Of a DNA stretch of 43,840 nt, positions 3,334 to 42,205 are shown in pieces. The position numbers and the translations under genes are program-made. Each line of letters opens with the position of its first letter. Position 1 is the stretch's first letter. Origin of the DNA: Bacillota bacterium (GTDB lineage Bacteria > Bacillota > Sulfobacillia > JAJZIM01); assembly GCA_021810565.1 (NCBI GenBank), contig JAJZIM010000020.1, positions 1 to 43,840 on the forward strand, given 5' to 3'. The notes beneath the pieces were generated by a model. It searched no databases. It was not told the DNA's origin and worked only from the letters and a program-made list of their open reading frames with translations.

Positions 3334-4205
3334 AACTGGCGTACTATCCGGGCTGCTCCTCCCACGGCAGCGCCGCCGACTACGACCGCTCGGCCCGGGC
3401 GGTGGCCGGAGCCCTGGCCCTGGAGCTGGTGGACGTGCCGGAGTGGAACTGCTGCGGGGCCTCCTCAGCCCACGGGGCCGACCACCGATTGGCCATGTAC
3501 CTGCCGGGGCGCAACCTGGCCGTGGCCGCCGGGATGGGGATGGGAGGGGTGGTCACGCCCTGCGCCGCCTGCTACAGCCGCCTGAACCGCGCCCATCACT
3601 GGCTGGCAGAAGATCGGCGCCGGTGGCTGGAGCTGTCCGCGGCCGTGGGCGTGCCCTACAACGACGTGGGCAAGCCGCGCTCCCTGCTGGAGGTGGTGGT
3701 GGGCGACGTGGGCCTGGAGGCGGTGGCCGCTCAGGTGCGCCGCCCGCTCAAGGGTCTGAAGGCGGCCGCCTATTACGGCTGCCTGATGCTCAAGCCCCCC
3801 GAGGTGGCCAGGTTCGACGACCCGGAGAATCCCCGCAGCATGGACGACCTGCTGCAGGCCCTGGGGGCGCAGCCGGTGCGCTGGGGCTTCAAGACGGAGT
3901 GCTGCGGCGCCAGTCTCTCCGTGAGCCGTCCCGAACTGGTGGAGAAGCTGGTGGGGGACATCCTGGACAACGCCTCCGCCGCCGGAGCCGAGTGCGTGGT
4001 CACCGCCTGCCCCATGTGCCAGGCCAATCTGGAGCAGCGTCGCTCGGAACGGCACCGGCTGCCCGTGTTCTACTTCACCGATCTGGCGGGCATCGCCTTC
4101 GGCCTGTCCCCCCGGGAGCTGGGGATCCCCATGCATCTGGGCGAGCCGCTGGAACTATTGCGCGGCAAGGGCCTCTTGGCGGCGGGCGAGGAGGGGCAAG
4201 GATGA
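3330..4205 (+). CDS. hdrB: Heterodisulfide reductase subunit B (HdrB)
   Basis: A 291-residue protein with two CCG domains, CCG at residues 41-43 and at 191-193, each with partner CxxC cysteines (for example TPCAAC near 72 and TACPMC near 228). In the family these ligate the two non-cubane [4Fe-4S] clusters that reduce the disulfide substrate. In a bacterium without coenzyme M/B the substrate is unknown; DsrC-type trisulfide or another thiol protein is the usual proposal. Start overlaps hdrC by 4 bases; stop overlaps hdrA by 4 bases, implying translational coupling and fixed stoichiometry. Confidence 0.94.
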
Positions 4206-6184: not shown

Positions 6185-6609
6185 CGGAGCGGGAACCGAA
6201 GATCGTGGGCTTCTTGTGCAACTGGTGCAGCTACGCCGGGGCGGACCTGGCCGGCACCAGCCGCACTTCCTATCCCACCTCCGTGCGGGTCATCCGGGTG
6301 CCGTGCTCGGGACGGGTGAACCCCCAGTTCGTGCTGCGGGCCTTCCAGCTGGGAGCCGACGGAGTGCTGGTGGCGGGGTGCCATCCGGGGGATTGCCACT
6401 ACTCCACCGGCAACTATTTCACCCGACGGCGCTTCCTCCTGGTGAAGCGCTTCCTGGACTACCTGGGGATCGACCAGCGCCGCTTCCGCCTGCGCTGGAT
6501 CTCGGCCTCCGAGGGGCCCAAGTTCGCCGAGACCATCCGGGAGATGACCGAGGAACTGCGCCAACTGGGACCGCGGGACGCCGCGGCGGTAGAGGCCCAT
6601 GCGGAGTGA
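6175..6609 (+). CDS. flxD: MvhD/FlxD-type [2Fe-2S] protein
   Basis: A 144-residue MvhD-like protein, the adaptor that links HdrA to its electron donor (hydrogenase, formate dehydrogenase or Flx). Cysteine pattern CNWCSYAG near residue 15, PCSGRV near 44 and GCHPGDCHY near 66 is diagnostic. The GTG at 6175 overlaps the end of hdrA by 10 bases and gives the usual short N-terminus before [10 protein letters not shown]. Here the donor genes that follow are flavin/NAD type, so it is called FlxD. Confidence 0.9.
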
Positions 6610-7546
6610 GGCGGTTCGCGCGGCGGCACGCCGCCTGCTGGAGGAGGGGAAGGTGGTCCGTTTCCTGGGCCACGCCCCAGGCTTTGACCCCACCAGCCCT
6701 TTCCCCCAGCTGATCACCCGGGCCGAAGAGGCCGAGCGGCTGGTGCTAGATCATTTCTGCGCCCCCAACCTGGCCAAGTACCTGCTGGACTACGAGACCC
6801 AGGAGGGAGTCACGGCGGTGGTCTTGAAGGGGTGCGACGCCTTGGGGCTGGCGCGGCTCTTGGCGGACCACCGGGTGGCGCGGGACCGGGTCTGGGTGGT
6901 GGGGCTGCCCTGTCCGGGGATGCTGGACCGGGACAAGGCGGCGGCGCTCTTGCCCGGAGTGCAGGAGGCCCGGGCGGAGGGTGACGAGTTCGTGCTGACG
7001 GGAGCGGGGGGCGAGCGGCGGGTGGCGGCGGGCCAGGTCCTGTTGGACCGCTGCCTGGTCTGCGCCGTTCCCACCCCCGACGACGCCGACGAGTTGTTGG
7101 GGGAGCCGGTGCCGGGGCGTCCGGTCCCCCGGGAGGAAGACGCGGCGGTGGCGGCCTTGGAGGCCATGACGAGCGCCGAGCGCAAGGCCTACTGGACGGA
7201 GCAGTTCTCCCGCTGCATCCGCTGCATGGCCTGCCGCAACGTCTGCCCGGCCTGCAACTGCCGCAGCTGCTGCTTCGACTCCGAGGAGCCGCGCTGGCTG
7301 TCGCGGGTCACCGATGGGCCGGCCCAGGAGATGTTCCACTTCGTGCGCGCCCTCCACGTGGCGGGCCGTTGCGTGGACTGCCACGAGTGCGAGCGGGTGT
7401 GCCCCATGGACATACCGCTGATGAAACTGAACCACAAGCTGCTGCAGGACGTGGAGGAGCTGTTCGAGTTGGAGCGGGCCTTCGTGCCGCGGGAGGTGGA
7501 GCCTCTGGGGATCTACCGGCCCGACGATCCGGAGGAGTTCGCTTGA
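6599..7546 (+). CDS. flxC: FlxC-like 4Fe-4S dicluster protein
   Basis: A 315-residue protein: an N-terminal alpha/beta region related to the beta subunits of F420 hydrogenase and formate dehydrogenase (FrhB/FdhB-like, [15 protein letters not shown] near 75) and a C-terminal double cluster, [19 protein letters not shown] near 204 and [12 protein letters not shown] near 258. In FlxABCD-HdrABC complexes FlxC and FlxB pass electrons from the flavin subunit FlxA towards FlxD. ATG overlaps flxD by 11 bases. Confidence 0.82.
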
Positions 7547-7562
7547 GGAGGGGGTGGCGTCG

Positions 7563-8597
7563 GTGAACGCCCTGGCGGTGGAGGAGCGCAAGGCGGTGCG
7601 GCTGGCCGACATCCGGCCGGTGCTGGAGCGCCTGGCGGCGGGCGGCAAGCTGGTGGCTCCGGTGGCGGAGGCGGGGGGGTTCGCCTTCCGGCGGGTGGGC
7701 CAGGCGGAAAAGGTGCGTCTGGACTTCTACAACACGGCGGAATCGCCCAAGGACCTGTTCTTCCCCCAGTCGGAGGTGCTGTTCTCCTACGACGCCGCGG
7801 GGATCGCCGTCCCGGAGCCGGCGGGGGAGCAGGTGCTCCTGGGCATCCGCCCCTGCGACCTGGCGGCCCTGCCGCTCTTGGACCGGGTCTTCGGGGAGGG
7901 ACCTTTCCGGGACCCCGGCTACCTGGCGCGGCGCGAGCGGACCGTCCTGGTGGCCGTGGCCTGCGACCGGCCGCGCGCCAGCTGTTTTTGCACCTCCTTC
8001 GGGTTGTCTCCGGGACACGTTGCAGGAGCGGACATGGTGTTGTATCCTGATGAGGGTGGATACCTGGTACGAGCGCAGACCGAGGCTGGCGAGGCGCTGA
8101 TGGCGGAATGGCCGGGGGAGGCGGTGGCGCCGGGGGAGGCCGAAGCGGTGGCCGCCCGCTACCGGTCCATGGAGACGCCACTGGGCCGGCGCATCCGTCT
8201 GGAGGGAGTGGCCGAGGCCCTGGACGGCATGTTCGACCACCCCATGTGGGAACAGATCGCCGCCCGCTGTCTGTCCTGCGGCATCTGCACCTACACCTGT
8301 CCCACCTGCCACTGCTTCCAGTTGACCGACGAGGCCAAGGGGGAGGCCGGAAAACGCGTGCGCTGCTGGGACTCCTGCATGTTTCCCGAGTTCACCCGCA
8401 TGGCCGGCGGGCACAACCCGCGGCCGGATAAGAAGGCCCGGGTGCGCCAGCGGTTCATGCACAAGCTCAACTACTTCGTACGGCGGTGGGAAGAATACCT
8501 GTGCGTGGGCTGCGGGCGCTGCGTGGAGAGTTGCCCCGTGGGCCTGGACATAGCGTACGTCATCGAAGCGGTGCAGGGGGTGACGGCCCGTGCCTGA
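7563..8597 (+). CDS. flxB: FlxB-like 4Fe-4S dicluster protein
   Basis: A 344-residue protein of the 4Fe-4S dicluster family seen in AsrA and hydrogenase beta-type subunits. It has IRPCDLAALPLLDR near 97, an internal cluster CLSCGICTYTCPTCHC near 236, and a C-terminal CVGCGRCVESCPVG near 314. The GTG at 7563 is preferred to the in-frame GTG at 7554 because GAGGAGGGGG (7546 on) would overlap the latter. It lies 16 bases after flxC and overlaps flxA by 8 bases. Confidence 0.82.
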   Translation: MNALAVEERKAVRLADIRPVLERLAAGGKLVAPVAEAGGFAFRRVGQAEKVRLDFYNTAESPKDLFFPQSEVLFSYDAAGIAVPEPAGEQVLLGIRPCDLAALPLLDRVFGEGPFRDPGYLARRERTVLVAVACDRPRASCFCTSFGLSPGHVAGADMVLYPDEGGYLVRAQTEAGEALMAEWPGEAVAPGEAEAVAARYRSMETPLGRRIRLEGVAEALDGMFDHPMWEQIAARCLSCGICTYTCPTCHCFQLTDEAKGEAGKRVRCWDSCMFPEFTRMAGGHNPRPDKKARVRQRFMHKLNYFVRRWEEYLCVGCGRCVESCPVGLDIAYVIEAVQGVTARA

Positions 8598-9438
8598 GGC
8601 GGCCCGGCAGCTGGATAATCCCCTGGTGCCCGCCCTGGCCACCGTCCAGGCGGTGCGTCCGGAGACGGCGGCGGGGGACGTGCGCACCTTCCAGGTGACC
8701 CTGGACGAGGGACCGGTCTTCCCCTACCTGCCCGGCCAGTGCGCCATGCTGTCGGTGCTGGGGGTGGGGGAGTCCATGATCTCCATCACCTCCTCCCCCA
8801 CCCGCCCCGATTTCCTGGAGTTCTCGGTGAAGAACGCGGGCCGGGTGACCGGCGCCCTCCACGAGCTGGGGGAGGGGGCGCGCATCGGGGTGCGCGGCCC
8901 CTACGGCAACCACTTCCCCCTGGAGCTGTTGCGCGGGAAGAACCTGGTCTTCGTGGGCGGCGGCATCGGGCTGGCCCCGCTGCGCTCCCTCATCTCCTAC
9001 TGCCTGGACCATCGGGCCGACTACGGTCAGGTGGATATCGTCTACGGAGCCCGCTCCCCGGTGGACCTGTGCTTCAAGGAGGACCTCTTCGAGCGGTGGC
9101 CGGCGGTGGAAAACACCTTCGTGCACGTGACGGTGGACCGGGGGGACGGCAGCTGGCAGGGACCGGTGGGCTTCGTGCCCGCCTATGTGGAGCAGGTGGC
9201 GCCCTCCTCCCGGGACGCCGTGGCCATCACCTGCGGCCCGCCCATCATGATCAAGTTCGTGCTGGCGGCTTTGGAGAAGTTGGGTTTCACCGACGAGCAG
9301 GTGGTAACCACCCTGGAGCTGAAGATGCAGTGCGGCGTGGGGATCTGCGGCCGCTGCAACATAGGACCCAAGTATGTGTGCCTGGACGGGCCGGTGTTCA
9401 CCCTGGCGGAACTGAAAAAGCTGCCCCAGGAATTCTAG
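8590..9438 (+). CDS. flxA: FlxA: FAD/NAD(P)H-binding oxidoreductase
   Basis: A 282-residue ferredoxin-NADP reductase-fold protein like PyrK and AsrB. It shows an FAD barrel (PYLPGQCAMLSVLG near 44), the NAD-binding motif VFVGGGIGLAPLRSL near 118, GPPIMIKFVL near 218 and a C-terminal [2Fe-2S] motif CGVGICGRCNIG followed by a fourth Cys near 265. As FlxA it would oxidise NADH and feed the Fe-S subunits. GTG start overlaps flxB. Together with hdrCBA it makes the window's NADH:disulfide/ferredoxin complex. Confidence 0.9.
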   Translation: MPEAARQLDNPLVPALATVQAVRPETAAGDVRTFQVTLDEGPVFPYLPGQCAMLSVLGVGESMISITSSPTRPDFLEFSVKNAGRVTGALHELGEGARIGVRGPYGNHFPLELLRGKNLVFVGGGIGLAPLRSLISYCLDHRADYGQVDIVYGARSPVDLCFKEDLFERWPAVENTFVHVTVDRGDGSWQGPVGFVPAYVEQVAPSSRDAVAITCGPPIMIKFVLAALEKLGFTDEQVVTTLELKMQCGVGICGRCNIGPKYVCLDGPVFTLAELKKLPQEF

Positions 9439-19166: not shown

Positions 19167-19206
19167 GCCGCGGTGGGCATCATTTGTAGTTTAGGAGGTG
19201 AGTGGC

Positions 19207-20829
19207 ATGCCGGCCATGTCCTGCATCACGGTGACCCGCACCGTGAAGTTCCAGGTTCGATCCGAGGCCAACGCCGGAAAGATCAGCGCCCTCCTCGCCA
19301 CCGTTCAGGAGTGGGACCGGGCCGTGGCCTTCTACGCGGATTTCTTCCTGGACCACCCCGGTATTTTCTCCGAGCAGAAGACCTACGTGGCAAAACGGGG
19401 GAAGTACGCCGGAGAGGAGCGGCCCCGCCCGCTCACCGCCCAGGAGATCCTGACCTGGGCGGAGCGCCACACCGTGGCCACCAAGGCGCATCCGAACCTG
19501 TCTCGCGACTTCGGACAGGTTTGCCCCGAAGCGCCGACCGTGCTGCGCCGTGCGGCCATCAACCACGCCGCCGGGGCGGTGCGACAGCACCTGTCGAACC
19601 TGGCCAACTGGGAGGCGGCGGATCCCAAGCGGCGGGGCAAGGTCCCGGCCCTGCCCCGGCCCCATCCGCACCTGGTGGCCTACGAAGGAATCTCCGCCCT
19701 GCGCCTGGAGGACTACCGGGAGGGATACCTTCGCCTGCGCCTCCTGGACGGCGAGCGCTGGGAGTGGCATAACATGTCGGTGCAAGGTCCCCCCTACGCC
19801 CCGGAACTGTTCGCCCAGTCGCACTCGGAGAAGGGGCGCACGGCCCAGAATCGACGCATGGCGGAGGAGGGCCGCGCCGAGCGCACCCAGGAGGAGCGGG
19901 AGGCGCTAGGCCCGACCGTCGGCGTGTGGGTGGCCCGATCCCCGGTGCTTATCCCCAAGGAGGATGGCTGGTGGATCCCCGTGCCCTTCGAGTGCCGGGT
20001 GGTCATCCGGGGCAAGGCCGAGGACCGACGGCTCGCGGAACCTGATCTCAGGGTGGGCACCTTCGACCTGAACGCGGCCTCCACCGTGGGGGCGGCCTGG
20101 CAGGGCCAGCGCTGCATCGGGATCAAGACCATCCGGCATGCCCGGGAGAGCGAGAAGCGGGAGAAGGCCCTGCGGACGGTGGCCAAGAAGCAGCGCCAAT
20201 CCGGTAGGGCCGTCAAGGGTGAGCGCTCCAACCGCTCCCTTTGGAACTACATCCGCAACCTGGACGACGCCTTGGCTTGGCAAATAGCCAGCGTTATCGT
20301 CACCTGGGCGGTGCTCCTGGGCCTCCAGGTGTTGGTCTTCGAGCACCTGCGGTCCTACCGGCCCCGGCGGGGCCTTTCCTGGAGCCGGCGCACCAACCGG
20401 AAACGCTCCTATTGGCTGCGCGGAAAGGTGGTGAAATACGCGAGGCACCTGGCCCTGATCCACGGCATTCTGGTGGTGGAGCGAAACCCGGCCTGGACCA
20501 GTCGAGCATGCCCCGAGTGTCACCGTTTGGCGGAGCGGTTCTCCCCCGGCGGTACCGGCTACCCCAGCCGGCTAGCTTGCGGGCACTGCCTTGCCCCTGG
20601 CCTTGCCGGCCTGAGGCATGGAGATGCGAACGTGGCGGCGGCCTTGAACCTAAAGCCCAAGTGGGATCGGACCTTCCGGTATCCCATGAAGCAGGAGGTC
20701 CAGGCGGCGGCTGAACCAAGACGCGCCGGAAACGGCGGCGCAGCTTCGGGGGCCAACGACCAAACGGCGGATGCCTCCGGAGCCCAAAGCCCTGGTGGTG
20801 GGGCTGGTAAAACCGATACGGCCGCTTAA
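19207..20829 (+). CDS. tnpB: TnpB-family RNA-guided nuclease (IS200/IS605-type)
   Basis: A 540-residue TnpB/OrfB protein. The split RuvC catalytic residues are readable: D287 in VGTFDLNAAS, E379 in LVFEHLRS and D473 in HGDANVAAALNL. A zinc ribbon sits between the last two with cysteines C435, C438, C458 and C461. TnpB uses an RNA from the element's right end to cut target DNA at the donor site and so helps retain the element. It is longer than a typical ~400-residue TnpB, with an extended N-terminal lobe and a low-complexity Gly/Ala tail of ~45 residues. No TnpA transposase is nearby. ATG 19207 chosen; the GTG at 19198 overlaps the ribosome site. Confidence 0.9.
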   Translation: MPAMSCITVTRTVKFQVRSEANAGKISALLATVQEWDRAVAFYADFFLDHPGIFSEQKTYVAKRGKYAGEERPRPLTAQEILTWAERHTVATKAHPNLSRDFGQVCPEAPTVLRRAAINHAAGAVRQHLSNLANWEAADPKRRGKVPALPRPHPHLVAYEGISALRLEDYREGYLRLRLLDGERWEWHNMSVQGPPYAPELFAQSHSEKGRTAQNRRMAEEGRAERTQEEREALGPTVGVWVARSPVLIPKEDGWWIPVPFECRVVIRGKAEDRRLAEPDLRVGTFDLNAASTVGAAWQGQRCIGIKTIRHARESEKREKALRTVAKKQRQSGRAVKGERSNRSLWNYIRNLDDALAWQIASVIVTWAVLLGLQVLVFEHLRSYRPRRGLSWSRRTNRKRSYWLRGKVVKYARHLALIHGILVVERNPAWTSRACPECHRLAERFSPGGTGYPSRLACGHCLAPGLAGLRHGDANVAAALNLKPKWDRTFRYPMKQEVQAAAEPRRAGNGGAASGANDQTADASGAQSPGGGAGKTDTAA

Positions 20830-31611: not shown

Positions 31612-32094
31612 ATGGCTGTAGTGACCCAGGAAATGAAAGATGCCCTGAGAATCATCGGCAAGGGAGGATCGGTGGTTCATCTTGCCACTTGTAGCCGAGG
31701 GGGCAAGCCCAATATCGTGGCCGAGCGGTTCGTGACGCACTATAAAGATGAATACATTCTTATCGCAGATATGTTTGCGCAAAAGACCAAAGTGAACCTG
31801 AACGAAAATCAAATGGCTTGCATTTCCGTGGCGCATCCCATGAAAAACCGGGCCTGGGTTTTTCGGGGGCCGTGCACCATCCTGACCCTCGGCGAGGCCA
31901 GGAATTACAAATGGCATGGAGTGATGGCCGGGCCGCTGCTGGACGAGTGGGGGTCCTGGGACGAGAAGGAACCGCCGGATGAGGTCCCGCCGGATATCCG
32001 GCCGCCGCGCACCGCGCAACGGGGAGTCATTGTACTCAAAGTGGAGGAAGTGTACAGTTGGCTGCCCGATGAGGCGGGACGTTCGGTCATTTGA
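31612..32094 (+). CDS. PPOX-fold (pyridoxamine 5'-phosphate oxidase-like) protein
   Basis: A 160-residue split-barrel protein of the PPOX/flavin-binding superfamily. It shows VVHLATCSRGGKPNIVAERFV, ILIADMFAQKTKVNLNENQM and ISVAHPMKNRAWVFRGPCTIL, the usual strands and the loop that binds the FMN or F420 phosphate. Members reduce or bind flavins, or act as heme-degrading or F420 enzymes. ATG at 31612 follows GGAAGGTGAGGG. It is the first gene of the island and is followed closely by a second, divergent PPOX gene. Cofactor unknown. Confidence 0.75.
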   Translation: MAVVTQEMKDALRIIGKGGSVVHLATCSRGGKPNIVAERFVTHYKDEYILIADMFAQKTKVNLNENQMACISVAHPMKNRAWVFRGPCTILTLGEARNYKWHGVMAGPLLDEWGSWDEKEPPDEVPPDIRPPRTAQRGVIVLKVEEVYSWLPDEAGRSVI

Positions 32095-32111
32095 AGGAGG
32101 GAGAGACGGGG

Positions 32112-32534
32112 ATGAGCGTGTCTTTGACCCCCAGGATGAAAGGCTGGCTTGAGACACTGGGAGCGCATATCGCCATCGCGGATCGGCAGTGCGTCCCCAC
32201 CGTCGTGGTTGTGACCCAGGCGCAGGTCGCGGGGGCGACCGTGACCTTCGCTCTGACTTCCGCCCAACGGAACCAAACAGCCAAGATCTTGGAGGAGAAT
32301 GATCAGGTGGCGGTGGCGCCCGGGCAATTGGGCAGTGTGCGGGCGCCTTATCAGTTCAAGGGGTCGGGACGCTTGCAAGGTGACCGGCTGGTGGTGGAGG
32401 TGCAGGAGATTTACAGTACGAAGCCCGGGCCGGAATCGGCGGTGCGCCTGGACGTTATGGGGCAGGAGAGAATGCAGCGCTGGGAGGAGGCACGCTGGAC
32501 CGACCTTCCTCCGTCCGGAGGTCCCACCGGCTGA
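32112..32534 (+). CDS. Second PPOX-fold protein
   Basis: A 140-residue protein resembling the PPOX split barrel: KGWLETLGAHIAIADRQCVP.., VTFALTSAQRNQTAKILEEN, QVAVAPGQLGSVRAPYQFKG, LVVEVQEIYSTKPG. It starts 17 bases after the first PPOX gene at ATG 32112. The two may form a heterodimer, since PPOX proteins dimerise with the active site at the interface. This is inference; the sequences differ strongly. Confidence 0.65.
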   Translation: MSVSLTPRMKGWLETLGAHIAIADRQCVPTVVVVTQAQVAGATVTFALTSAQRNQTAKILEENDQVAVAPGQLGSVRAPYQFKGSGRLQGDRLVVEVQEIYSTKPGPESAVRLDVMGQERMQRWEEARWTDLPPSGGPTG

Positions 32535-32874: not shown

Positions 32875-34659
32875 ATGGATAAAGCGGTCGTGGCGGCCTT
32901 TCGAGCGGCCACCGCCCAGCCGGACTATCTCACGACGGATAAGTTTGACGCTATGTTGAGCGGCTTCGGCGTGTTCAATCTGGGGATTTGGGCGGCGGCC
33001 AACGTGCTGGCTAAGGAAATCGAAAAAGGTCGGAAAATCAAGTTGGACGTGGCCAATGAGCAGCACACGGATATGGATTTCCTGGCCGGTCGCTTGACGA
33101 AGGTGCTGAAGGAGTGCGGTGCGGATCCTTCCAACGCCTCACTGGTGGCGGCCACACTCCTGTATTGGGCCGGGGCCAACGTAACGGCCGGCATCCCGGC
33201 CCCCAACCGGAAACTGGGCGCGGTGTGTCGCATGGCTGCCGGAGCGCCTGCGGGACGGGTGGCAAACATGCCGACTGAGAAACTGAACAACAAGATATCT
33301 GGCTTTGCGGCGGTCCAAGCCATGTACCAAGCCATGAGCCGGGAGATCCTTGCCCCTTACGACGGCGCTTCGGTGCCCCTGGGAGTGGGGGGCAGCCCCC
33401 TCACCGGGCACACGCGGTTGGGAGAAGACATCTTGTTTCCCGAGTTGGCACAAAAATTGGTGCGCATCGGAGTGGATGCGATGCTGCAAGCCTACCGATC
33501 CGTGGGCATCAAGCCGTCCCGCTGGATGGCCAGCTTGTTGTCCTGCGCGGCGGCGTTGGAGATATTGCATCCGGATGCCTATGTGGGTGACGAGTGGGGG
33601 CCGTTCCTGCAGACCAGAACGCATTACGTGTGCGGTTTGACGGCGGTGGAAGCGGCCAAGTTGCCGGATAAGATTCATATTCGGGGAACGGGGGAAGAGT
33701 TGGAAACGGCCAAGGTGTTGGGGGAACTGGCCATGATCCTGAAGGACTGCGGGGCGCCCACCGTGGTGGGGATGATCATGTTCAACGAGGCCAATGCGAT
33801 CATCGCGGAAGGGGCGGGCTTGGGAGTCGGACGCAGCGGTGGGCCGCTGCTGCTGCCGCTGACCCACTGGTGCACCTCGGCGGTGCTGGCGCTGTACCTG
33901 ATCAGCAAGGGGATGAGCGAAAGCGGGATCGTCGACACCATAGCCAAGACCATGGATAACTTCTTTCAGCCGGAACATGCGGCGGTAGCTACAAACCTGT
34001 TGGCTCGCCGAGGCAACTTTCTTGAGCGGGGTCCGGTCACCAGGATGGTGATCCAAGCCACCGAACCAACCTTGGTTAAAGCGGTCTATCGGCGGGCGCT
34101 GCGGACGCATGAGGCGTTGCGGCAAGGCCGAACTTTGACCGAGGTAACGCGCAGCTTCGAGGAGGAAAGGATCCAGACCATAGGGGAAGGGGTCGCCCGC
34201 ATCATGAGCCAGTCCTTGGGCAGGAAAATCGAATACGTCAAATTCCGGAATGTCAGAGCAGGAGCCGGCAGGCGCACCCATCGTTTCGCCAAACAGTACT
34301 TCGCTTTCGACGGCTATGTAGACGTGGACGTCAAGGTGGACGGGAAAGTACACCGACATAGAAACATATATGTCACCGTCATTCCCGATGCCATGGTCAA
34401 CAAGGATCAGGCCACCTTGGACATCGTCCAGTGCTATGCCGTTGGCGCGGTGGATTTGCTCAACGCCGGGGCCGTGGCCATGGACGTGGTGGTGCCGGCT
34501 TGCGTGGGGGCGGCCATGGGGATGGAGGTGTCGGAGGCGCTGGAGCAAGCCGCAGCCGGTGCGACCATCAGCATGAGCATTCAGGTGCCGACCATGCAGG
34601 AATCGGCAACCTTGGCCGCGCGGATAGCCAGAGAGATGCCGGACGACTTCCCGCTATAG
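32875..34659 (+). CDS. 594-residue protein of unknown family, candidate enzyme of the lar island
   Basis: I do not recognise this protein. It is soluble-looking, with no signal peptide or membrane anchor, and Gly/Ala-rich loops typical of enzymes: LLYWAGANVTAGIPAPNRK near 100, GVGGSPLTGHTRLGEDILF near 165, GMIMFNEANAIIAEGAGLG near 300, PLLLPLTHWCTSAVLALYL near 325, NLLARRGNFLERGPVTRM near 370, and DVDVKVDGKVHRHRNIYVTV near 484. Eight scattered cysteines, no CxxC cluster motif. LarA landmarks are absent. ATG at 32875 has GGGAGG upstream. It heads the run ferredoxin-DUF2267-cupin-larC2-like-larE-MBL-larB-larC, so it is the best candidate catalytic subunit of that pathway. A faint echo of serine dehydratase/CyuA Gly-rich loops is not enough for an assignment. 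Confidence 0.8.
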   Translation: MDKAVVAAFRAATAQPDYLTTDKFDAMLSGFGVFNLGIWAAANVLAKEIEKGRKIKLDVANEQHTDMDFLAGRLTKVLKECGADPSNASLVAATLLYWAGANVTAGIPAPNRKLGAVCRMAAGAPAGRVANMPTEKLNNKISGFAAVQAMYQAMSREILAPYDGASVPLGVGGSPLTGHTRLGEDILFPELAQKLVRIGVDAMLQAYRSVGIKPSRWMASLLSCAAALEILHPDAYVGDEWGPFLQTRTHYVCGLTAVEAAKLPDKIHIRGTGEELETAKVLGELAMILKDCGAPTVVGMIMFNEANAIIAEGAGLGVGRSGGPLLLPLTHWCTSAVLALYLISKGMSESGIVDTIAKTMDNFFQPEHAAVATNLLARRGNFLERGPVTRMVIQATEPTLVKAVYRRALRTHEALRQGRTLTEVTRSFEEERIQTIGEGVARIMSQSLGRKIEYVKFRNVRAGAGRRTHRFAKQYFAFDGYVDVDVKVDGKVHRHRNIYVTVIPDAMVNKDQATLDIVQCYAVGAVDLLNAGAVAMDVVVPACVGAAMGMEVSEALEQAAAGATISMSIQVPTMQESATLAARIAREMPDDFPL

Positions 34660-34690: not shown

Positions 34691-35005
34691 GTGGCCCTGG
34701 CGTCTGTCGAAAAAATCCAAAGGGTCAGGGGCCTGGGACGTCGCAATAAACGAATGCCTTGGGTGATCCCGGTGAGTTGCGAAGGTTGCGGCAGTTGTGT
34801 GCAGGCCTGTCCACAGCAAGGATTGGTTATGCTGGAAACAAATCGGGAGGGAGTATATGTACCATGGCTCTTGGAACCGGCGCTATGCATCGGATGTGGG
34901 AAATGTGCAGAAGTTTGCGTGATGGGAGCACTGGTCATGACGAGCTATGTGCAAGAAGCCTATGATCGCTTCGCAAATAAGCGCCCAACTCTGCCCTCCG
35001 ATTAA
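34691..35005 (+). CDS. 2x[4Fe-4S] ferredoxin-type protein
   Basis: A 104-residue protein with two classic motifs, CEGCGSCVQACP near residue 30 and CIGCGKCAEVCV near 67, spaced as in bacterial dicluster ferredoxins, plus a 20-residue N-terminal extension. It likely passes electrons to or from the 594-residue protein, which starts its gene run just upstream (31-base gap). GTG at 34691 follows AGGGGATG. The next gene begins 2 bases after its stop. Confidence 0.9.
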   Translation: MALASVEKIQRVRGLGRRNKRMPWVIPVSCEGCGSCVQACPQQGLVMLETNREGVYVPWLLEPALCIGCGKCAEVCVMGALVMTSYVQEAYDRFANKRPTLPSD

Positions 35006-35007
35006 GG

Positions 35008-35436
35008 ATGACAAGGTTGTTCAAACGAGAAGTAACCCTGCGAGAATTTGCTAATTACGCTCGGGCGGTAGGGGGTTACTGCAGTTACCATGATGCGTTG
35101 GCGGCGGTAAATGCGGTATTGGGTGTGCTGCCCCACGTGATGTCCTCCCAAAATGCCGGGGCGGCAAGGGCCTTGCTGCCTTCGGCCTTGCGGCCAAGTT
35201 GGGACTCCTTTTCCGTCAACGCAGGAGAAGATGTCTGGACCCTGGCGGCCCGCGCCGGGGAGTTTTCCTCCCGGGAGGAAATAGGGCGGGCGATGCATGC
35301 CGTCTTCTCCAGTCTCAAGGAAAAATTGCGGGAGGGGGCACCTCGCTGGCAGCGGTTGCTGCCCGCCGAATTGCTGCTGGTATGGGAGCGTAGCCAGACA
35401 GTGGATGCCTCGCAACAAGCCAAGGACTGTCTGTGA
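35008..35436 (+). CDS. DUF2267-like helical protein
   Basis: A 142-residue protein made of two similar helical halves: LREFANYARAVGGYCSYHDA.. to LLPSALRPSWDSF, and VWTLAARAGEFSSREEIGRA.. to LLPAELLLVWE. Each resembles the DUF2267 repeat (family of unknown function, often in stress clusters). Match is by pattern only. ATG at 35008 is 2 bases after the ferredoxin stop, so it is likely cotranscribed and translationally coupled. Confidence 0.6.
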   Translation: MTRLFKREVTLREFANYARAVGGYCSYHDALAAVNAVLGVLPHVMSSQNAGAARALLPSALRPSWDSFSVNAGEDVWTLAARAGEFSSREEIGRAMHAVFSSLKEKLREGAPRWQRLLPAELLLVWERSQTVDASQQAKDCL

Positions 35437-35543
35437 CGTTGAACTCGGCGCTGGTCAGCGCATCGAAAAAGGGGCAATGCCGGTACCGCGCCTGCCCCAG
35501 GGTCTAACAGCCCCATTTGCTTCGGATCGGGGGGGATCAAGGG

Positions 35544-35915
35544 ATGGCTAATTCCGAGAACCGGATCTTTAGAATTCCCACTGCAGCTTCGAGCCCCGGC
35601 GCGGCCGCCGTGAAGACTGTCATTAGGACCGACGAGACCGCTTCGGTTGCCTTCTGGCGGGTGCCGCCCGGGGAGGAAGTCCACGCGCACCGCCACCCTC
35701 AAGGTCAGGATACCTGGGTGGTGCTGTCGGGCGAGGCTGTCTACTATCTGGGTGGTGACCAGATGGGGGCCTTGCATCCCGGGGACATCGCTGTGGCCGG
35801 AGCCGGCGAGGTCCATGGCGGGCGTAACACCGGAAGCGAAGAGTTGGTCTTCGTATCGATCCTCTCGCCCGCGTCAGCCGGGTTTGCCGCGGTGGACGAC
35901 CAGGATCCGCCCTGA
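35544..35915 (+). CDS. Cupin-domain protein
   Basis: A 123-residue single cupin. Metal motif 1 is seen as PPGEEVHAHRHPQGQDTWVV (His, His, His/Gln and Glu-equivalent positions) and motif 2 as PGDIAVAGAGEVHGGRNTG. Small cupins bind a metal and can be isomerases, dioxygenases or sensors. It sits in the lar island between the DUF2267-like gene and the LarC-like gene. ATG at 35544, with AGGG just upstream. Role not deducible. Confidence 0.85.
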   Translation: MANSENRIFRIPTAASSPGAAAVKTVIRTDETASVAFWRVPPGEEVHAHRHPQGQDTWVVLSGEAVYYLGGDQMGALHPGDIAVAGAGEVHGGRNTGSEELVFVSILSPASAGFAAVDDQDPP

Positions 35916-36023
35916 GCTGTCTAGACCGATGCCCACCACTTTTCTCCTTGGGCGGGTGGCGTCTGGGTCGCAGGATGCGGCTTTGCAGCCGGTTGGTCCA
36001 CATGTGGAGGGAGGATGCGGTGG

Positions 36024-36584
36024 ATGAGCAAAAAAATGAGATTGCTGTTGGCCCAAGCGGACGATCTGACAGGAGAAGCCGTGGGCCATTTGATACCGCG
36101 GCTCTTGGAAAAAGGTGCAGCTAATGTCCAGGTGATAGCGAGCATAACCAAGAAAAATCGGCCAGGGCAAGTAATCTTGGTGGACATGCGACCGGAGCGG
36201 CTGGCCGCGGTATTAAGCGTTTTACTGGCAGAGACAGGGATATCCGGTTATTATATTCTGGATGGTCATCATTTCTCCCTGGAAGTGTCCTTTGCACCAA
36301 AAATTCTGCGGATAACGTTGGGAGATGCATCTTGGACCAGGGATTTCGTGGTCAAGTATGTTGGCCCCAAGGAACATCCCTTTGCTATCAAAGTAGAGCA
36401 TGATTTCTTGCAAATAGTGCAGAAAGATCTGGAGATGCGAGGTGGGACTTGTTCTCTTAAGCAGTTGCGGGCACTGATCGAGAGCCAATTGTGGCTTGTT
36501 GATACGCCGGAGATCTTATTAAGTTTTCCATCGGCTACACCGTTGCCCGCTGTGGCGGGAAGAGCATCTATCCGTTTGGGCTGA
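36024..36584 (+). CDS. Stand-alone LarC C-terminal-domain paralogue
   Basis: A 186-residue protein matching the C-terminal half of LarC. AQADDLTGEAVGHLIPRLLE aligns with ETNLDDMDPRLYPPLLEQLL of the full LarC encoded at 39412, KKNRPGQVILVDMRPERLAA with KKGRPGVQLTVLALPEKAGE, and LLAETGISG with LLLETTSLGV. In LarC this domain (LarC2) binds CTP and works in nickel insertion into the pincer nucleotide. There is no LarC N-terminal part upstream and the frame is intact, so it is a separate gene, not a broken larC. ATG at 36024 is chosen because GGAGGGAGG lies 9 bases upstream. Lower G+C than its neighbours. Confidence 0.72.
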   Translation: MSKKMRLLLAQADDLTGEAVGHLIPRLLEKGAANVQVIASITKKNRPGQVILVDMRPERLAAVLSVLLAETGISGYYILDGHHFSLEVSFAPKILRITLGDASWTRDFVVKYVGPKEHPFAIKVEHDFLQIVQKDLEMRGGTCSLKQLRALIESQLWLVDTPEILLSFPSATPLPAVAGRASIRLG

Positions 36585-36606: not shown

Positions 36607-37473
36607 ATGGAGCTGCAGTTGTGTCGTAAGAAGAGAAAACTGGAACGCATCTTCAGGTCGATGGGAAGTGTAGTGGTGGCCTTTTCCGGTGGGGTGGACA
36701 GCACTTTGCTGTTGCACGAGGCCCAACGGATGGTAGCGGGGCGGGTGCTGGCGGTGACTGCGGCCTCGCCCAGCTTGCCGGAGCGCGAGTTGGCGGCGGC
36801 GCGGGTTATGGCGGCGGATATGGCAGTAGAACACCTGGTAATCCGGACCGATGAACTGCACGATCCAAGATATGCAAGGAATTTTAACGACCGATGCTAT
36901 TATTGCAAAGCGATGCTTTTTAATAAGTTGCTGTCTATAGCTGAAGCCCGGGAAATGGAGTGGGTGGCTTATGGAGCAAATATTTCAGACATGTTGGAGG
37001 TCCGACCGGGAGCCCAGGCGGCAAGAGAGCTGGGAATACGTAGCCCGTTGGTCGAAGCGGGCTTGACCAAGGAGGAGGTTCGGGAATTGTCTCGCCTAGC
37101 CGGGTTGCCCACCTGGGCCAAACCTGCGGCGGCATGTTTGGCCTCGCGGTTCCCTTACGGTTTTTCCCTGAGCAGGGAGGTGTTCCGGCAAGTAGAACAA
37201 GCGGAGGATCTGCTGCTTGGCTTAGGCTTTAGGCAATTGCGGGTCCGCCACCACGGAGAGTTGGCCCGGCTGGAGGTCGCTCCTGAGGAGATGCCGCAGA
37301 TGTTGCAGACGCAGGTCTGCCGGGAGGTGGTCGCGGGATTGCAGAAATTAGGCTATCGCTATATCACCCTGGATCTGCAAGGTTACCGGACGGGAAGTTT
37401 CAACCAAGCACCGGAGGGCGGAAACATAGCGGCGGTACGCATCCATGCGGCCGCCGAGCAGGTCAAAGCGTGA
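36607..37473 (+). CDS. larE: LarE: ATP-dependent sacrificial sulfur transferase
   Basis: A 288-residue PP-loop enzyme. AFSGGVDSTLLLHEA near residue 24 binds ATP; DRCYYCKAMLFNKL near 97 and YGANISDMLEVRPG near 119 are LarE marks; the sulfur-donating cysteine is C177 in KPAAACLASRFPYG, one position off C176 of the Lactiplantibacillus enzyme. LarE adenylates the pyridinium carboxylate made by LarB and turns it into a thiocarboxylate, giving up its own cysteine sulfur, or using a [4Fe-4S] cluster in three-Cys types. ATG at 36607 follows AAGGAGC. Lies 22 bases after the LarC-like gene. Confidence 0.93.
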   Translation: MELQLCRKKRKLERIFRSMGSVVVAFSGGVDSTLLLHEAQRMVAGRVLAVTAASPSLPERELAAARVMAADMAVEHLVIRTDELHDPRYARNFNDRCYYCKAMLFNKLLSIAEAREMEWVAYGANISDMLEVRPGAQAARELGIRSPLVEAGLTKEEVRELSRLAGLPTWAKPAAACLASRFPYGFSLSREVFRQVEQAEDLLLGLGFRQLRVRHHGELARLEVAPEEMPQMLQTQVCREVVAGLQKLGYRYITLDLQGYRTGSFNQAPEGGNIAAVRIHAAAEQVKA

Positions 37474-37712
37474 CTGCGGAGCAGCCCATTCGGCGGCTCC
37501 CGCGTCAGGGGCGAGGGGGGTCGGCGTGGCGTTGGCTGGCGGAGGAGCGATGGGTGGGGTTGAGCGGACGACTGACCACCCTCCTCAGGGGCCTGCCCCC
37601 AGTCAGACGGGAATCATACCAAAGGAGTGTCGAAAATGACGGGACAGTTCAAGGGCCTGCCGATTTGCGATCAGGTGCAAGTGAGAGTCCTGATGGACAA
37701 CGCCGTAGATGA
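37470..37712 (+). CDS. Possible 80-residue basic protein between larE and the MBL gene
   Basis: A GTG start overlaps the larE stop in a GTGA arrangement typical of coupled genes, and the frame stays open for 80 codons, ending inside the MBL gene. The product is rich in Arg and Trp (RGGSAWRWLAEERWVGLSGR). The first ~55 codons lie outside any other gene. No family recognised and no separate ribosome site; it may be spurious. Confidence 0.3.
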   Translation: MTAEQPIRRLPRQGRGGSAWRWLAEERWVGLSGRLTTLLRGLPPVRRESYQRSVENDGTVQGPADLRSGASESPDGQRRR

Positions 37713-38640
37713 GTTCCTCCCGGCCGCGCCCGGCATAGAGCGTTTCAGCTTTATCCGTCCGGGCTATGAGGAGTTGCCGTTGCCTCTTCGGGCGGAGCAC
37801 GGGTTTTCCTTATTGGTGCGCTGGCAGATTGCAGACCGGGACCACGCGCTGCTTTTCGATTTCGGTCTGTCGGCGGACGGATTGGCGGAGAATCTACGGG
37901 CCTTGGGGGAGGATCTGACGGAGGTGGAAGCTTTGGCCCTAAGCCATGGGCATTGGGACCACTTCGGTGGCCTGGCAATGCTTCCGTTCCACGGCAGGCA
38001 TACGCCTTTTTATCATGGGCCCGAGGCATTTCGGGAACGTCGGATCGGGCCGTCCGGGCGGGAAGTAAACGTGGGTAGAATAAACCAGGAATGGCTGGAG
38101 CGTCTGTCGCTGGTCGCTTGCGAGGTGGCTCAGCCGCAGGAGATCCTCCCAGGAGCTTTGCTGGCGGGACGGATACCGAGGGAAACGGCCTTTGAGGGAG
38201 CAACCGGTCCTTTTCAGGTCAAACATGGGGATAAATGGGGGCCTGACTACTTGCCGGGAGAGATGGCCTTGATCATGCGCACCCAGCGGGGGCTGCTAGT
38301 CATTTCCGGATGCGCCCATGCCGGTATCGTAAACACCGTTCTTTACGCCCGCCGGTTGACGGGAGAGAAGAAGGTGCACGCTGTCTTGGGCGGATTCCAT
38401 TTAGTCACCAGCTCTTCGGAAGTCATTGACCGCACCATCCGATGCATTGCCGATATCGATCCGGATGTGGTGCTCCCCATGCATTGCACCGGCAATGCGG
38501 CAAGCATTGCCATCGCCAAAGACTTGGAGGGAGCCTACCGGGTTTCTGTCGTGGGCACTACTTTGCATTTCCCGCTGTTGGCTGCGGCACCGGCTGATGC
38601 ACAAGCGGAGACGCCACGCGTGCAGTCAGCCGCTCCCTAA
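37636..38640 (+). CDS. Metallo-beta-lactamase-fold hydrolase in the lar cluster
   Basis: A 334-residue MBL-fold protein close to the group annotated as 7,8-dihydropterin-6-yl-methyl-4-(beta-D-ribofuranosyl)aminobenzene-5'-phosphate synthase. Metal motif ALSHGHWDHFGGLAML near residue 106; further ligands SGCAHAGIVNTV near 228 and GGFHLVTSS near 254; VLPMHCTG near 280 is the C-terminal His motif. These enzymes act on phosphoester or cyclic-phosphate pterin or nucleotide substrates. Its position between larE and larB suggests a step on an NPN-type nucleotide. ATG at 37636 has AAGGAG 9 bases upstream. Confidence 0.85.
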   Translation: MTGQFKGLPICDQVQVRVLMDNAVDEFLPAAPGIERFSFIRPGYEELPLPLRAEHGFSLLVRWQIADRDHALLFDFGLSADGLAENLRALGEDLTEVEALALSHGHWDHFGGLAMLPFHGRHTPFYHGPEAFRERRIGPSGREVNVGRINQEWLERLSLVACEVAQPQEILPGALLAGRIPRETAFEGATGPFQVKHGDKWGPDYLPGEMALIMRTQRGLLVISGCAHAGIVNTVLYARRLTGEKKVHAVLGGFHLVTSSSEVIDRTIRCIADIDPDVVLPMHCTGNAASIAIAKDLEGAYRVSVVGTTLHFPLLAAAPADAQAETPRVQSAAP

Positions 38641-38653
38641 AGAGGATGGGGGC

Positions 38654-39415
38654 ATGGATCGCTCTACCCTGGCTGCCTGGCTCGAAGAAGTCCGATTGGG
38701 TTCCCTCACGCCTGCCGCTGCTTTGGAACGCCTGGCCGCGTGGCCCTACGAGGATTTGGGCTTTGCCAAGGTGGACCATCACCGAGTCCTTCGCCAAGGT
38801 TTTCCGGAGGTGATCTACTGTCCTGGCAAGACACCGGACCAAGTGGCGGCGATCGCCACGCGACTGCGTGCTACGGGCGCCACCGTCTTGGTCACCCGAA
38901 TCACACCGGAGGCGGCAGCGCTCTTGGAGAGCGCCTTTCCGGAACTGGCTTACCATCCGGAGGCGCGACTGGCCTTCTTGGGGGCACCGGCGCTGCCGCA
39001 ACACCAAGGTTGCATCGCGGTGGTCTGTGCCGGGACCGCCGACCTGCCGGTGGCGGAAGAAGCTGCCTTGTGTGCCGAGGTGATGGGCAATCCCGTGCGC
39101 CGCATCTATGATGTGGGGGTGGCTGGGTTGCACCGACTGTTGGATCACCGGGAGGTGCTGGCGCGGTCCCGGGTGGTGATCGTCGTAGCGGGGATGGAGG
39201 GGGCGTTGCCCACCGTGGTTGCCGGACTCATCGACCGACCAGTGGTGGCCGTGCCTACGAGTGTCGGCTATGGGGTTTCCCTGGGGGGGATAGCCGCGCT
39301 GCTGACGATGCTCAACAGTTGCGCCGGACGGGTGGGCGTGGTCAATATAGACAACGGCTTCGGGGCGGCGGCCTTGGCGGATGCCATCAACCGCGCGGCG
39401 GAAGCAACGCCATGA
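38654..39415 (+). CDS. larB: LarB: pyridinium-3,5-biscarboxylic acid mononucleotide synthase
   Basis: A 253-residue PurE-like enzyme that carboxylates nicotinic acid adenine dinucleotide and releases AMP, the first step of NPN cofactor synthesis. Seen: PEVIYCPGKTPDQVAAIA near 52, GCIAVVCAGTADLPVAEEA near 119, YDVGVAGLHRLLDH near 149, and the catalytic cysteine C223 in MLNSCAGRVGVVNIDNGFGA (C221 in Lactiplantibacillus). ATG at 38654 follows GAGGATGGGGG. Its stop overlaps the larC start (ATGA). Confidence 0.93.
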   Translation: MDRSTLAAWLEEVRLGSLTPAAALERLAAWPYEDLGFAKVDHHRVLRQGFPEVIYCPGKTPDQVAAIATRLRATGATVLVTRITPEAAALLESAFPELAYHPEARLAFLGAPALPQHQGCIAVVCAGTADLPVAEEAALCAEVMGNPVRRIYDVGVAGLHRLLDHREVLARSRVVIVVAGMEGALPTVVAGLIDRPVVAVPTSVGYGVSLGGIAALLTMLNSCAGRVGVVNIDNGFGAAALADAINRAAEATP

Positions 39416-40602
39416 GACATCTGTACCTGAACTGTTTTGACGGCATCAGCGGTGACATGGCCTTGGCAGCGCTGCTGGATCTGGGTTTGCCGGAAGCGGT
39501 GCTGCGAGATGTTCTCCGGGCCCTGGGGTTGGAGCACCAGGTGCGCTTGGCGGTGCGGGCGACCACCCAGCACTCCATAGGGGCCACGGCGTTGGAAGTC
39601 GTATGCGCCGCTGCGCAGCCCTTGCGGCGGCTGAGTGAGATCCTTTCTTTGTTGGGAGAAGCCAGGTTGCCGGACGGCGTACGGGAACGATCCGCCGCCA
39701 CCTTTCACCTGCTGGTTGAGGCCGAAGGTAGGGTCCACGGTGTCTCGCCCGCACAGGTCAACCTTCATGAGTTGGGGGCTTTGGACACCATCGTGGACGT
39801 GGTAGGCTTCGCGGCCGGCTTGGACCATCTGAAGATCCAGGCGGTTTCGGCATCCCCTGTGCCCTGGTTCACCGGTCGCATCGAGACAGAACATGGGTTC
39901 CTCTCCCTGCCGGCGCCTGCGGTACTGGAATTGCTGCGAGGGATTCCGATCGTGCCTGGGGAGCGGGCGGAGGAAATAGTCACCCCGACGGGAGCCGCTT
40001 TGCTGGTCGTGCACGCAGGGTCCTTCGGTCCTCCTCCCGCTTTTAGGTTGAAGTCGGTGGGTTACGGTGCCGGAAGGAGGGCAGGATCGCTCCTGCGGGC
40101 CGTGCTGGGGGAGGTGGAGGTGGCTGCGGAGGGGAGTTGGGAAGAGATCGCTGTGCTGGAAACCAATCTGGACGACATGGATCCGCGCTTGTACCCGCCC
40201 CTGTTGGAGCAGTTGTTGGGCGCAGGTGCGCTGGACGCCTTTGCGACCACAGTACAGATGAAGAAAGGACGCCCCGGCGTGCAACTTACGGTGCTGGCCT
40301 TGCCTGAAAAGGCGGGAGAGTTATGCGACCTGCTGCTGCTGGAAACCACCAGTCTGGGCGTGCGGGTGCAGCAACTGCGGCGGCGCGTCGCGGCGCGGGA
40401 GATCCGCCGTGTGGACACTGCCTATGGTTCGGTGCGGGTCAAGCTGGCCATGCTGGCGGGTCGTGTGGTGGGGGCCAATCCCGAATTGGAGGATTGTCGC
40501 AGTTTGGCCCAGCAGCGGGGGGTTCCCTTGAAAGTGGTGATGGCCAGCGCCCAGGCGGCTGCCCAGGCGGCATACCCGGTGTGCAGGGCCGGGGGAGGCT
40601 AG
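39412..40602 (+). CDS. larC: LarC: nickel insertion protein (full length)
   Basis: A 396-residue single-frame LarC, in contrast to the Lactiplantibacillus gene that needs a ribosomal frameshift. N-terminal LYLNCFDGISGDMALAALLD, HLHELG-type motif seen as QVNLHELGALDTIVDVVG near 119, EIVTPTGAALL near 185, and the C-terminal domain ETNLDDMDPRLYPPLLEQLL near 247 with KKGRPGVQLTVLA. LarC uses CTP to cyclometalate the pyridinium dithiocarboxylate nucleotide with nickel. The His-rich loop of some LarC proteins is missing. The start overlaps larB. Confidence 0.93.
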   Translation: MRHLYLNCFDGISGDMALAALLDLGLPEAVLRDVLRALGLEHQVRLAVRATTQHSIGATALEVVCAAAQPLRRLSEILSLLGEARLPDGVRERSAATFHLLVEAEGRVHGVSPAQVNLHELGALDTIVDVVGFAAGLDHLKIQAVSASPVPWFTGRIETEHGFLSLPAPAVLELLRGIPIVPGERAEEIVTPTGAALLVVHAGSFGPPPAFRLKSVGYGAGRRAGSLLRAVLGEVEVAAEGSWEEIAVLETNLDDMDPRLYPPLLEQLLGAGALDAFATTVQMKKGRPGVQLTVLALPEKAGELCDLLLLETTSLGVRVQQLRRRVAAREIRRVDTAYGSVRVKLAMLAGRVVGANPELEDCRSLAQQRGVPLKVVMASAQAAAQAAYPVCRAGGG

Positions 40603-40819: not shown

Positions 40820-42205
40820 TTGATCCAGCGGGAATTCTTCCTGGGCCAACTGCTGCACCAGTTGTTCAACTGGGAGATGCAAGGCGATCGGCAACCGGAA
40901 ACCTCCCGACTGCTGATGGTTGCGGAAGGGTTGGGGCGGTGGGCTTATCAGGAGATGGCCAACAGCGGCCAGGCGGCGGCATGTCCGGACATGGCAGCTT
41001 ACGGCGCGCTGCTGGCGGACTTGAAGAATGCCCTGGGCGGAAGCTGCGCGGTGCTGAAGGGAGGCGATAATTGGGCAGTCCTGGCGCTGAAGCGTTGCCC
41101 CTTTCAAGAGGTCATTCGCCAGTCACCATGTATGTGCATGGTAACGGCAGGAGTCTTCGGTGTTTTGACTCGCTGCCGCTTCGGATACGGGCGCGTGGTG
41201 TTGGAGCGCACCATTGCCACGGGGGCTCCGTGGTGCCGCATAGCCGTCTACGCCACTCCGGGCGTGGTCGAGGTGGGGGACGCGGTCAGCCTGGAATTTC
41301 CGGCGTCGGCAGCGGCAAGACTGCACGAGCCCGCCGAAGTGGTTGGCCGGGGTCGGCCAAGTTGGCTGTCGGGGGGGGGCAGGCAGTTTGCGCTACGCTG
41401 CCTGACCGAGTTGCAAGGGATCCGGGAACGCCTGGAAGACAACTTGGTGCGAGGCCTCATCAACGATTCCTTCACGCTGGAGGACAGTGAGTTTTTGGGC
41501 CAGCAACTGGTTAACTTAGGACGGTGCCTTGCGGAGACATACCGCGTGCTGCTGGTGACCCGGAAGCCAGAGGGGTCTTTGGAGGTACCCGGGCGGCGGA
41601 GTTGGCGCAAGGTCTTGCGGCGGCGAATGCGGCAAAGTGCTCCGGACAGTTTAGCGGGCCGGGATGACCAGGATGGAATGGTGGTGCTGGTTCCGGGGAA
41701 GGAGTATGAGGTGGCGGAACTGGTGCGGCTTTGTCAGGAGGACCTGCAGCGCTGCGGCCACGAGGGGCTGACCATGTCGGTGGGCGGTCCCAGCCAGAGT
41801 TTGCCAAACATCCGTCGCTCCTATCTGCAGGCTGCGATAGCCATGCGTGTTTTGGAACGCCTGGGGCCGGCACATAAGGATATTTTTTTCGAGCATCTTG
41901 GAATATACAGCTTATTCTACTACCTGGAGGAGCTACCCTTGGCTCGGGAAGCAGCTATGCAAATGCTGCGACCGCTGATAGAATACGATGATCGGCGGCA
42001 CACCTACCTATTGAGTACCTTGGAGACTTATTTCGCTTGCGAATGTAAGTTTAAGAAAACTGCAGATGCGCTATTTATCCATCCGACGACACTGAAGTAT
42101 CGATTACAACGGGCACAGCAGCTGGGAGGTTTCAATCTGGCAAATATGGAAGACCGACTGTCGGTGCTTATGAGCCTACGCTTTATCAAGCTAAATGTGC
42201 GTTAG
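40820..42205 (+). CDS. PucR/CdaR-type transcriptional regulator
   Basis: A 461-residue protein with a C-terminal PucR helix-turn-helix: LSTLETYFACECKFKKTADA then LFIHPTTLKYRLQRAQQLGG near 405-440. The upstream region shows a GGDEF-like/PucR middle domain (MVVLVPGKEYEVAELVRLCQ). The N-terminal ~250 residues are a sensor region I cannot name. Such proteins activate adjacent catabolic genes when their ligand is present, so it is the likely regulator of the island. TTG start at 40820. No known effector. The last gene inside the bracketing inverted repeat. Confidence 0.82.
   Translation: MIQREFFLGQLLHQLFNWEMQGDRQPETSRLLMVAEGLGRWAYQEMANSGQAAACPDMAAYGALLADLKNALGGSCAVLKGGDNWAVLALKRCPFQEVIRQSPCMCMVTAGVFGVLTRCRFGYGRVVLERTIATGAPWCRIAVYATPGVVEVGDAVSLEFPASAAARLHEPAEVVGRGRPSWLSGGGRQFALRCLTELQGIRERLEDNLVRGLINDSFTLEDSEFLGQQLVNLGRCLAETYRVLLVTRKPEGSLEVPGRRSWRKVLRRRMRQSAPDSLAGRDDQDGMVVLVPGKEYEVAELVRLCQEDLQRCGHEGLTMSVGGPSQSLPNIRRSYLQAAIAMRVLERLGPAHKDIFFEHLGIYSLFYYLEELPLAREAAMQMLRPLIEYDDRRHTYLLSTLETYFACECKFKKTADALFIHPTTLKYRLQRAQQLGGFNLANMEDRLSVLMSLRFIKLNVR

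Follow-up and report, generated by a model that had tools for sequence, protein, structure and literature searches.

A free-standing LarC2-like protein paired with a candidate NPN enzyme unrelated to LarA

Overview

A complete free-standing LarC2-like domain (hereafter the solo) is encoded in the window, the whole 43,840-nucleotide stretch of DNA analysed here, together with a 594-aa protein (hereafter the client) that it accompanies in several bacterial phyla. Our preferred reading, held with moderate confidence, is that the solo is the client's dedicated cofactor-handling partner and that the client is a candidate NPN enzyme unrelated to LarA. The observations on which it is based are the fold of the solo, its separate subfamily, its obligate pairing with the client, the Lar genes and nickel transporters found with the pair, and the absence of LarA; from these we infer that NPN binds to the client and that it is the cofactor, not the substrate, on which the solo acts.

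In the known route, LarB performs the carboxylation, LarE the sulfur insertion and LarC the CTP-dependent nickel insertion via a cytidinylylated intermediate, and the NPN so produced is installed in LarA, on which the adduct amounts to about +450 Da (PMC11796402). The larB, larC and larE genes are found without larA in about 15% of surveyed genomes, which implies a non-LarA NPN enzyme (mBio 2024), and a non-LarA NPN protein had been predicted but not identified (PMC11796402). The present cluster lacks LarA and carries a client that is not LarA-like, and therefore matches this prediction. It provides a concrete candidate for the non-LarA NPN enzyme, with an obligate partner and genetic neighbours. 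No description of the client-solo system was found in the literature searched, and should the client prove to be an NPN enzyme, it would be of a new kind.

The gene cluster in the window

The following features were assigned to the cluster:

31612–32094, forward strand: PNPOx-like FMN-binding split-barrel protein (PF01243, 37.9 bits)
32091–32534, forward strand: second small protein, encoded ahead of the client and conserved in position, 147 aa when read from the first possible start, without a Pfam family
32875–34659, forward strand: the 594-aa client, candidate non-LarA NPN enzyme, without a Pfam or NCBIfam family
34691–35005, forward strand: 2x[4Fe-4S] ferredoxin (Pfam Fer4 families)
35008–35436, forward strand: DUF2267-like protein, 142 aa (PF10025, 31.0 bits, cut-off 29.8)
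35517–35915, forward strand: cupin between client and solo (PF07883, 55.9 bits)
36024–36584, forward strand: the free-standing LarC2-like protein (solo), 186 aa, or 189 aa if the start is at 36015
36607–37473, forward strand: LarE, sulfur insertase (TIGR00268, 318 bits, cut-off 150)
37627–38640, forward strand: MBL-fold protein (PF00753, 51.8 bits)
38654–39415, forward strand: LarB, pyridinium carboxylase (NF033503, 293 bits, cut-off 175)
39412–40602, forward strand: full-length LarC, LarC1 and LarC2 in one frame (PF01969, 406.7 bits over positions 1–375; TIGR00299, 175.6 bits)
40820–42205, forward strand: PucR/CdaR-type regulator at the cluster end (PF13556, 67.7 bits)

Bacillota and Nitrospirota loci share the PNPOx-like protein and the second small protein, both ahead of the client, and the DUF2267-like protein beside it. 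The ferredoxin, with homologues in L009, L011, L012, L013, L046 and L052, was kept beside the client in the Bacillota loci of the window type and in the Actinomycetota locus. The MBL-fold protein had a 31% match in a Nitrospirota locus (L016), and the cupin was not generally conserved, one weak cupin match being present in the other loci. The G+C content of the cluster (0.50–0.66) was below the window average of 0.67, which is consistent with transfer. Elsewhere in the window, reading the translations by eye picked out a long series of ORFs resembling Hdr, 4Fe-4S and hydrogenase/sulfhydrogenase electron-transfer proteins (2770–9438) and a TnpB/IS605-type-like ORF with a C-terminal zinc-ribbon (19198–20829).

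Sequence, fold and subfamily of the solo

The solo ORF starts at 36024 with an ATG placed after GGAGG, at a Shine-Dalgarno spacing better than that available to the start at 36015. Its product matched the Pfam model PF01969 (Ni_insertion) with 54.3 bits (E = 1.6e-14, cut-off 22.1), aligning to positions 243–360 of 375, which correspond to the C-terminal (LarC2) part only, and no LarC1 is joined to it. The window copy scored 49.2 bits against the NCBIfam LarC2 model (NF052512), just below the cut-off of 50, and all 32 relatives of a set of 32 matched this model at E <= 1e-3. The ORF is a complete free-standing LarC2-like domain, and the first-pass annotation, which had placed such a domain beside a complete one-frame LarC, was confirmed by this C-terminal match and by the full-length LarC at 39412–40602 (406.7 bits).

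An alignment and an AlphaFold model of the solo were built from the 32 relatives, the model presenting a mean pLDDT of 93.6. The best Foldseek match in the PDB was MK0293 (3c19, E = 2.3e-11), and LarC2 itself was recovered with 6bwo (E = 1.1e-9, probability 1.00, TM 0.62/0.79), so that the predicted fold, on which the annotation had made its proposal depend, is that of LarC2. PII/CutA-type proteins came next, at E ~5e-4, as might be expected if the solo were a PII-like regulator, using its ferredoxin-like fold as a nucleotide sensor to control the client or LarC; this is very improbable, because LarC2 shares the fold and scores far better, and because LarC2 motifs are retained.

The solo shares 29% identity over 69 aa with the window's own LarC, and a tree separated the solo sequences from the LarC2 domains of LarC by one branch with support 100, in an analysis where the program flagged long branches and the exact rooting is unsure. 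The solo proteins form a subfamily well separated from the LarC2 domains of ordinary LarC; the annotation had called the second LarC2 unit diverged. The low identity and the deep separate branch also ruled out a recent duplication of the window LarC.

The solo family retains the LarC2 residues D13, E18, K43, K44, R46, G75, K111 and E125, the KK-x-R likeness to LarC pointed out earlier being preserved in K43, K44 and R46. D34 is replaced by N in every solo copy, and the arginines at solo positions 77, 83 and 88, at least 97% invariant in LarC, are lost. These replacements are the reason for classing the solo as LarC2-like and not as a canonical LarC2, and they leave its binding of CTP or NPN not assured, the activity of LarC2 being CTP-dependent insertion of nickel into P2TMN.

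The 594-aa client protein

No family was found for the client in Pfam or NCBIfam profile searches. Its AlphaFold model, built from 33 sequences, was mostly helical (pLDDT 89.7, pTM 0.91). Foldseek found no PDB chain at E 0.001 for the full-length model, the best E being 0.4, and in VIA the best Z was 5.1, to designed helical repeats, a comparison that VIA notes to be uninformative for helical proteins; the missing PDB match of the full-length model is no proof of a new fold. Weak profile matches to 4h7l (E = 0.009) and to a designed repeat were considered likely chance. A distant relationship to LarA was unsupported, as the client presented no Pfam match, no Lar_N domain and an hhalign probability of 0.5% against a LarA that itself scores 676 bits with NF033504. 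Many columns of the client alignment are invariant, including K113, K136, K140, K290, H179, H232, H268 and H331, and these lysines and histidines may serve to attach the cofactor, which NPN-dependent enzymes hold covalently on a lysine, and to carry out acid-base chemistry.

Relatives of the client were sought in the phylum, then in plasmids, and then by scanning 84,980 genomes with the alignment, which yielded 45 loci. The phylum search returned one relative (72%), and rhizobial relatives were found on plasmids (39%). A pattern scan of Archaea gave no client homologue, nor did any appear in cyanobacteria, which this cluster leaves unexplained. In the complete genome G506, some 20 kb separate the intact client from a fragment that matches only the last 100 residues of the client profile (G506:C1:304163-304459, L070).

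Pairing of the client and the solo

The solo was present on the same strand in all 43 near-complete client loci with enough flanking sequence, downstream of the client in 36 and upstream in seven, at a median distance of 31 bp and a maximum of 1134 bp. These loci span Bacillota, Nitrospirota, Pseudomonadota and Actinomycetota, and the fact that the two genes stay neighbours while their order differs between phyla points to a functional link. In the five client loci without a solo (L018, L022, L025, L045 and L047) the contig ends no more than 424 bp 3' of the client, and in two of these cases the genome search gave a solo-type match (G459 and G476). Thus, the solo was beside homologues of the 594-aa protein in other genomes, as the annotation had proposed to check, and no cluster copy with adequate flanking sequence lacked it.

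The pairing was also followed within taxa. In the order of G329, the client occurred in four of 113 genomes (G329, G506, G540 and G551), and solo-class matches (102–217 bits) were found in the same four, all the others being ordinary LarC at no more than 60 bits. This exact overlap has a chance probability of about 1.6e-7 (1/113-choose-4) if the genomes are independent, and the true support is weaker because they are related. Similarly, among 398 genomes of the phylum, only the window's genome (G000) and G329 carried client or solo, their solo scores being 181 and 204 bits against 66 bits for the next best genome. Many genomes of the phylum have LarC, and therefore the solo follows the client and not LarC. 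This distribution gives no support to the earlier guess that the solo regulates LarC, since the solo tracks the 594-aa protein and is kept in Anaerosphaera without a full LarC. The accompanying guess of a chaperone stands in the broader sense of a factor for the client, which by virtue of the obligate pairing fits best of the four functions then suggested.

The solo might also be simply one more LarC2, redundant and used in NPN synthesis at large, as suggested by the PGAP name of the R. tropici copy ('nickel insertion protein') and by its being the only LarC2 in Anaerosphaera. We regard this as improbable, given the absence of the solo from LarC-bearing genomes without a client, the support of 100 for its deep separate branch and the change of invariant residues.

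Among pairwise distance correlations, that of client and solo was the highest (r = 0.91; client-LarB, 0.85). Together with the one-to-one pairing and the adjacency on either side, this would suit a single enzyme made of both proteins, the solo being its structural or catalytic subunit and the LarC2 fold holding the cofactor during turnover. Such an arrangement seems doubtful to us, because the characterised LarC2 domain works in cofactor synthesis and because operon partners correlate anyway.

Lar genes, nickel transport and the absence of LarA

The three Ni_insertion matches in the window's genome are the solo, the window LarC and the LarC of a second LarB-LarC pair on another contig. Inspection by eye placed a LarB-LarC pair next to ParB/ParA-like genes in L001/L010 (G000:C93) and in Desulfofundulus (L011:11687-15784). 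No LarA (PF09861) was found in the genome search of the window's genome, a point that the annotation had missed, and it was absent from 30 of the 43 other client genomes. Matches above cut-off were found for LarB in 40/44 and LarE in 38/44 client genomes, and for Ni_insertion in 42/43, so the company of LarB, LarC and LarE is shared by the window and most relatives, the exceptions being Anaerosphaera and several probably incomplete MAGs. In rhizobia, client, solo, LarC, LarE, LarB and a NixA nickel transporter form one operon, in this order, and in G506 a NikA-like nickel/peptide ABC transporter is accompanied by solo, LarB, stand-alone LarC1 and client.

Many Bacillota carry a stand-alone LarC1 (~245 aa, TIGR00299 146–225 bits) beside the client and a full LarC elsewhere, the two coexisting in G445, G457, G462, G473 and G480. 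The stand-alone LarC1 is absent from rhizobia, most Nitrospirota and the window's genome, where the solo is still kept. As a general rule, the possibility that the solo supplies the LarC2 missing from a split LarC was rejected, because a full LarC coexists in most genomes; Anaerosphaera fits it.

These genes bear on another explanation, a second cyclometallase in which the solo, with LarC1 where present, makes a cofactor variant used only by the client and differing in metal, precursor or nucleotide. Its attractions are the client-side LarC1 present in many Bacillota in addition to a full LarC, the LarC1 and solo retained alone in Anaerosphaera without LarB and LarE, and the change of three arginines and one aspartate that are invariant in canonical LarC2, which would also suit the different metal or nucleotide suggested by the annotation. 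Nevertheless, rhizobia, most Nitrospirota and the window's genome keep the solo without a stand-alone LarC1, and operons of this kind keep LarB and LarE and hence the standard NPN route, so that we consider a second cyclometallase unlikely, though less so than the other alternatives.

Exceptions to the standard NPN route

Anaerosphaera multitolerans and A. aminiphila (L024 and L026; G458 and G460) carry client, solo and stand-alone LarC1, and profile searches of both genomes found no LarB, LarE, full LarC or LarA. The LarB search returned PurE-like matches only (37 and 34 bits, cut-off 175), and the LarE search generic ATP-pyrophosphatase matches (<30 bits, cut-off 150). In Anaerosphaera, LarC1 is followed directly by a DUF1893 gene and an ECF transporter S component, which also adjoin LarC1 in L023, whose genome has LarB and LarE. 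It is possible that Anaerosphaera salvages a cofactor precursor.

In the Rhizobium tropici group, LarE is interrupted by a single in-frame TAA (L006:15568-16374, also L036, L037, L038 and L044), leaving ORFs of 134 and 121 aa that both resemble the intact LarE, which is found in L007 and L008. Because LarB and LarE are missing or broken, the known NPN route would be closed in Anaerosphaera and the R. tropici group, barring salvage or another synthesis. LarB and LarE are in this sense less strictly tied to the client than the LarC1- and LarC2-type proteins, and a modified cofactor is a serious rival to the preferred reading.

In a bolder form of the preferred reading, the client would have a new fold and be the first enzyme known to use NPN without belonging to the LarA superfamily, and the solo and LarC1 would be a client-specific maturase for a scavenged or differently made cofactor. 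We advance it tentatively, at somewhat less than even chances. A maturase acting on such a cofactor would explain Anaerosphaera without LarB and LarE.

Substrate hints from neighbouring genes

One-carbon genes were found within 10–12 kb of the client in several lineages. For example, a formate-THF ligase is near the client in four Bacillota loci (L023, L024, L026 and L054), and each of the four Nitrospirota loci that extend far enough (L016, L017, L019 and L020) has genes for the catalytic subunit of CO dehydrogenase and for a NuoF-like flavoprotein downstream of the client cluster. As CO dehydrogenase is itself a nickel enzyme, a shared nickel supply could explain its presence nearby. In G506 (L074, 10162–19321), the client cluster is immediately followed by genes for beta-RFAP synthase, an Mpt_N dehydrogenase and subunit A of formylmethanofuran dehydrogenase; these methanopterin-type one-carbon genes stand in a bacterial genome. 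The neighbours thus hint at one-carbon metabolism, too weakly to name a reaction.

Moreover, a PatB-type C-S lyase, RidA and an amino-acid ABC transporter are near the client in rhizobia (L006:2744-8988), and one Bacillota locus (L023:16364-21496) has an AGCS carrier together with MalY/PatB-like genes and a gene resembling RidA. These PatB/MalY-type and transport neighbours make an amino-acid substrate possible, again too weakly to name the reaction. A link of the client to mimosine breakdown was considered, and a literature search gave it no support.

Proposed mechanism and experimental systems

According to the preferred reading, in which the solo is the client's cofactor-handling partner, LarB, LarE and the full LarC would supply NPN as in the known route. 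The solo, with its nucleotide-binding LarC2 fold lacking the three arginines, would bind the cofactor, as such or linked to CTP, and, often with a stand-alone LarC1, would load, complete or maintain the cofactor in the client. The carriers include the culturable Rhizobium, Sinorhizobium, Desulfofundulus, Eubacterium callanderi and Anaerosphaera, and co-expression in E. coli with the Duet system already in use offers a way to examine the question.

Comparison with known systems

The client keeps the company known for the LarA superfamily of NPN-dependent 2-hydroxyacid racemases and epimerases, namely LarB, LarC, LarE and nickel uptake. In contrast to these enzymes, it has no sequence similarity to LarA and no Lar_N, and Foldseek gave no significant LarA match for its mostly helical full-length model.

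The best match of the solo, both in sequence (54.9 bits with the family profile) and in fold, is MK0293 of Methanopyrus kandleri (3c19), an uncharacterised solo LarC2-like protein. MK0293 differs in being archaeal, the domain of life in which the pattern scan found no client homologue.

The separate LarC1 and LarC2 reading frames resemble the frameshift-split larC1/larC2 of lactobacilli. However, the solo belongs to another subfamily and is a neighbour of the client; in addition, there is usually either a full LarC or a LarC2 of the classic split type. Finally, the solo has in common with the LarC2 of Lactiplantibacillus plantarum LarC (6bwo/6bwq/6bwr; NF052512; C-terminal part of PF01969) the fold and the D-x-x-x-x-E and KK-x-R motifs, whereas it is free-standing, tied to a non-LarA protein, changed from D34 to N, deprived of the three arginines and extended by additional C-terminal residues.
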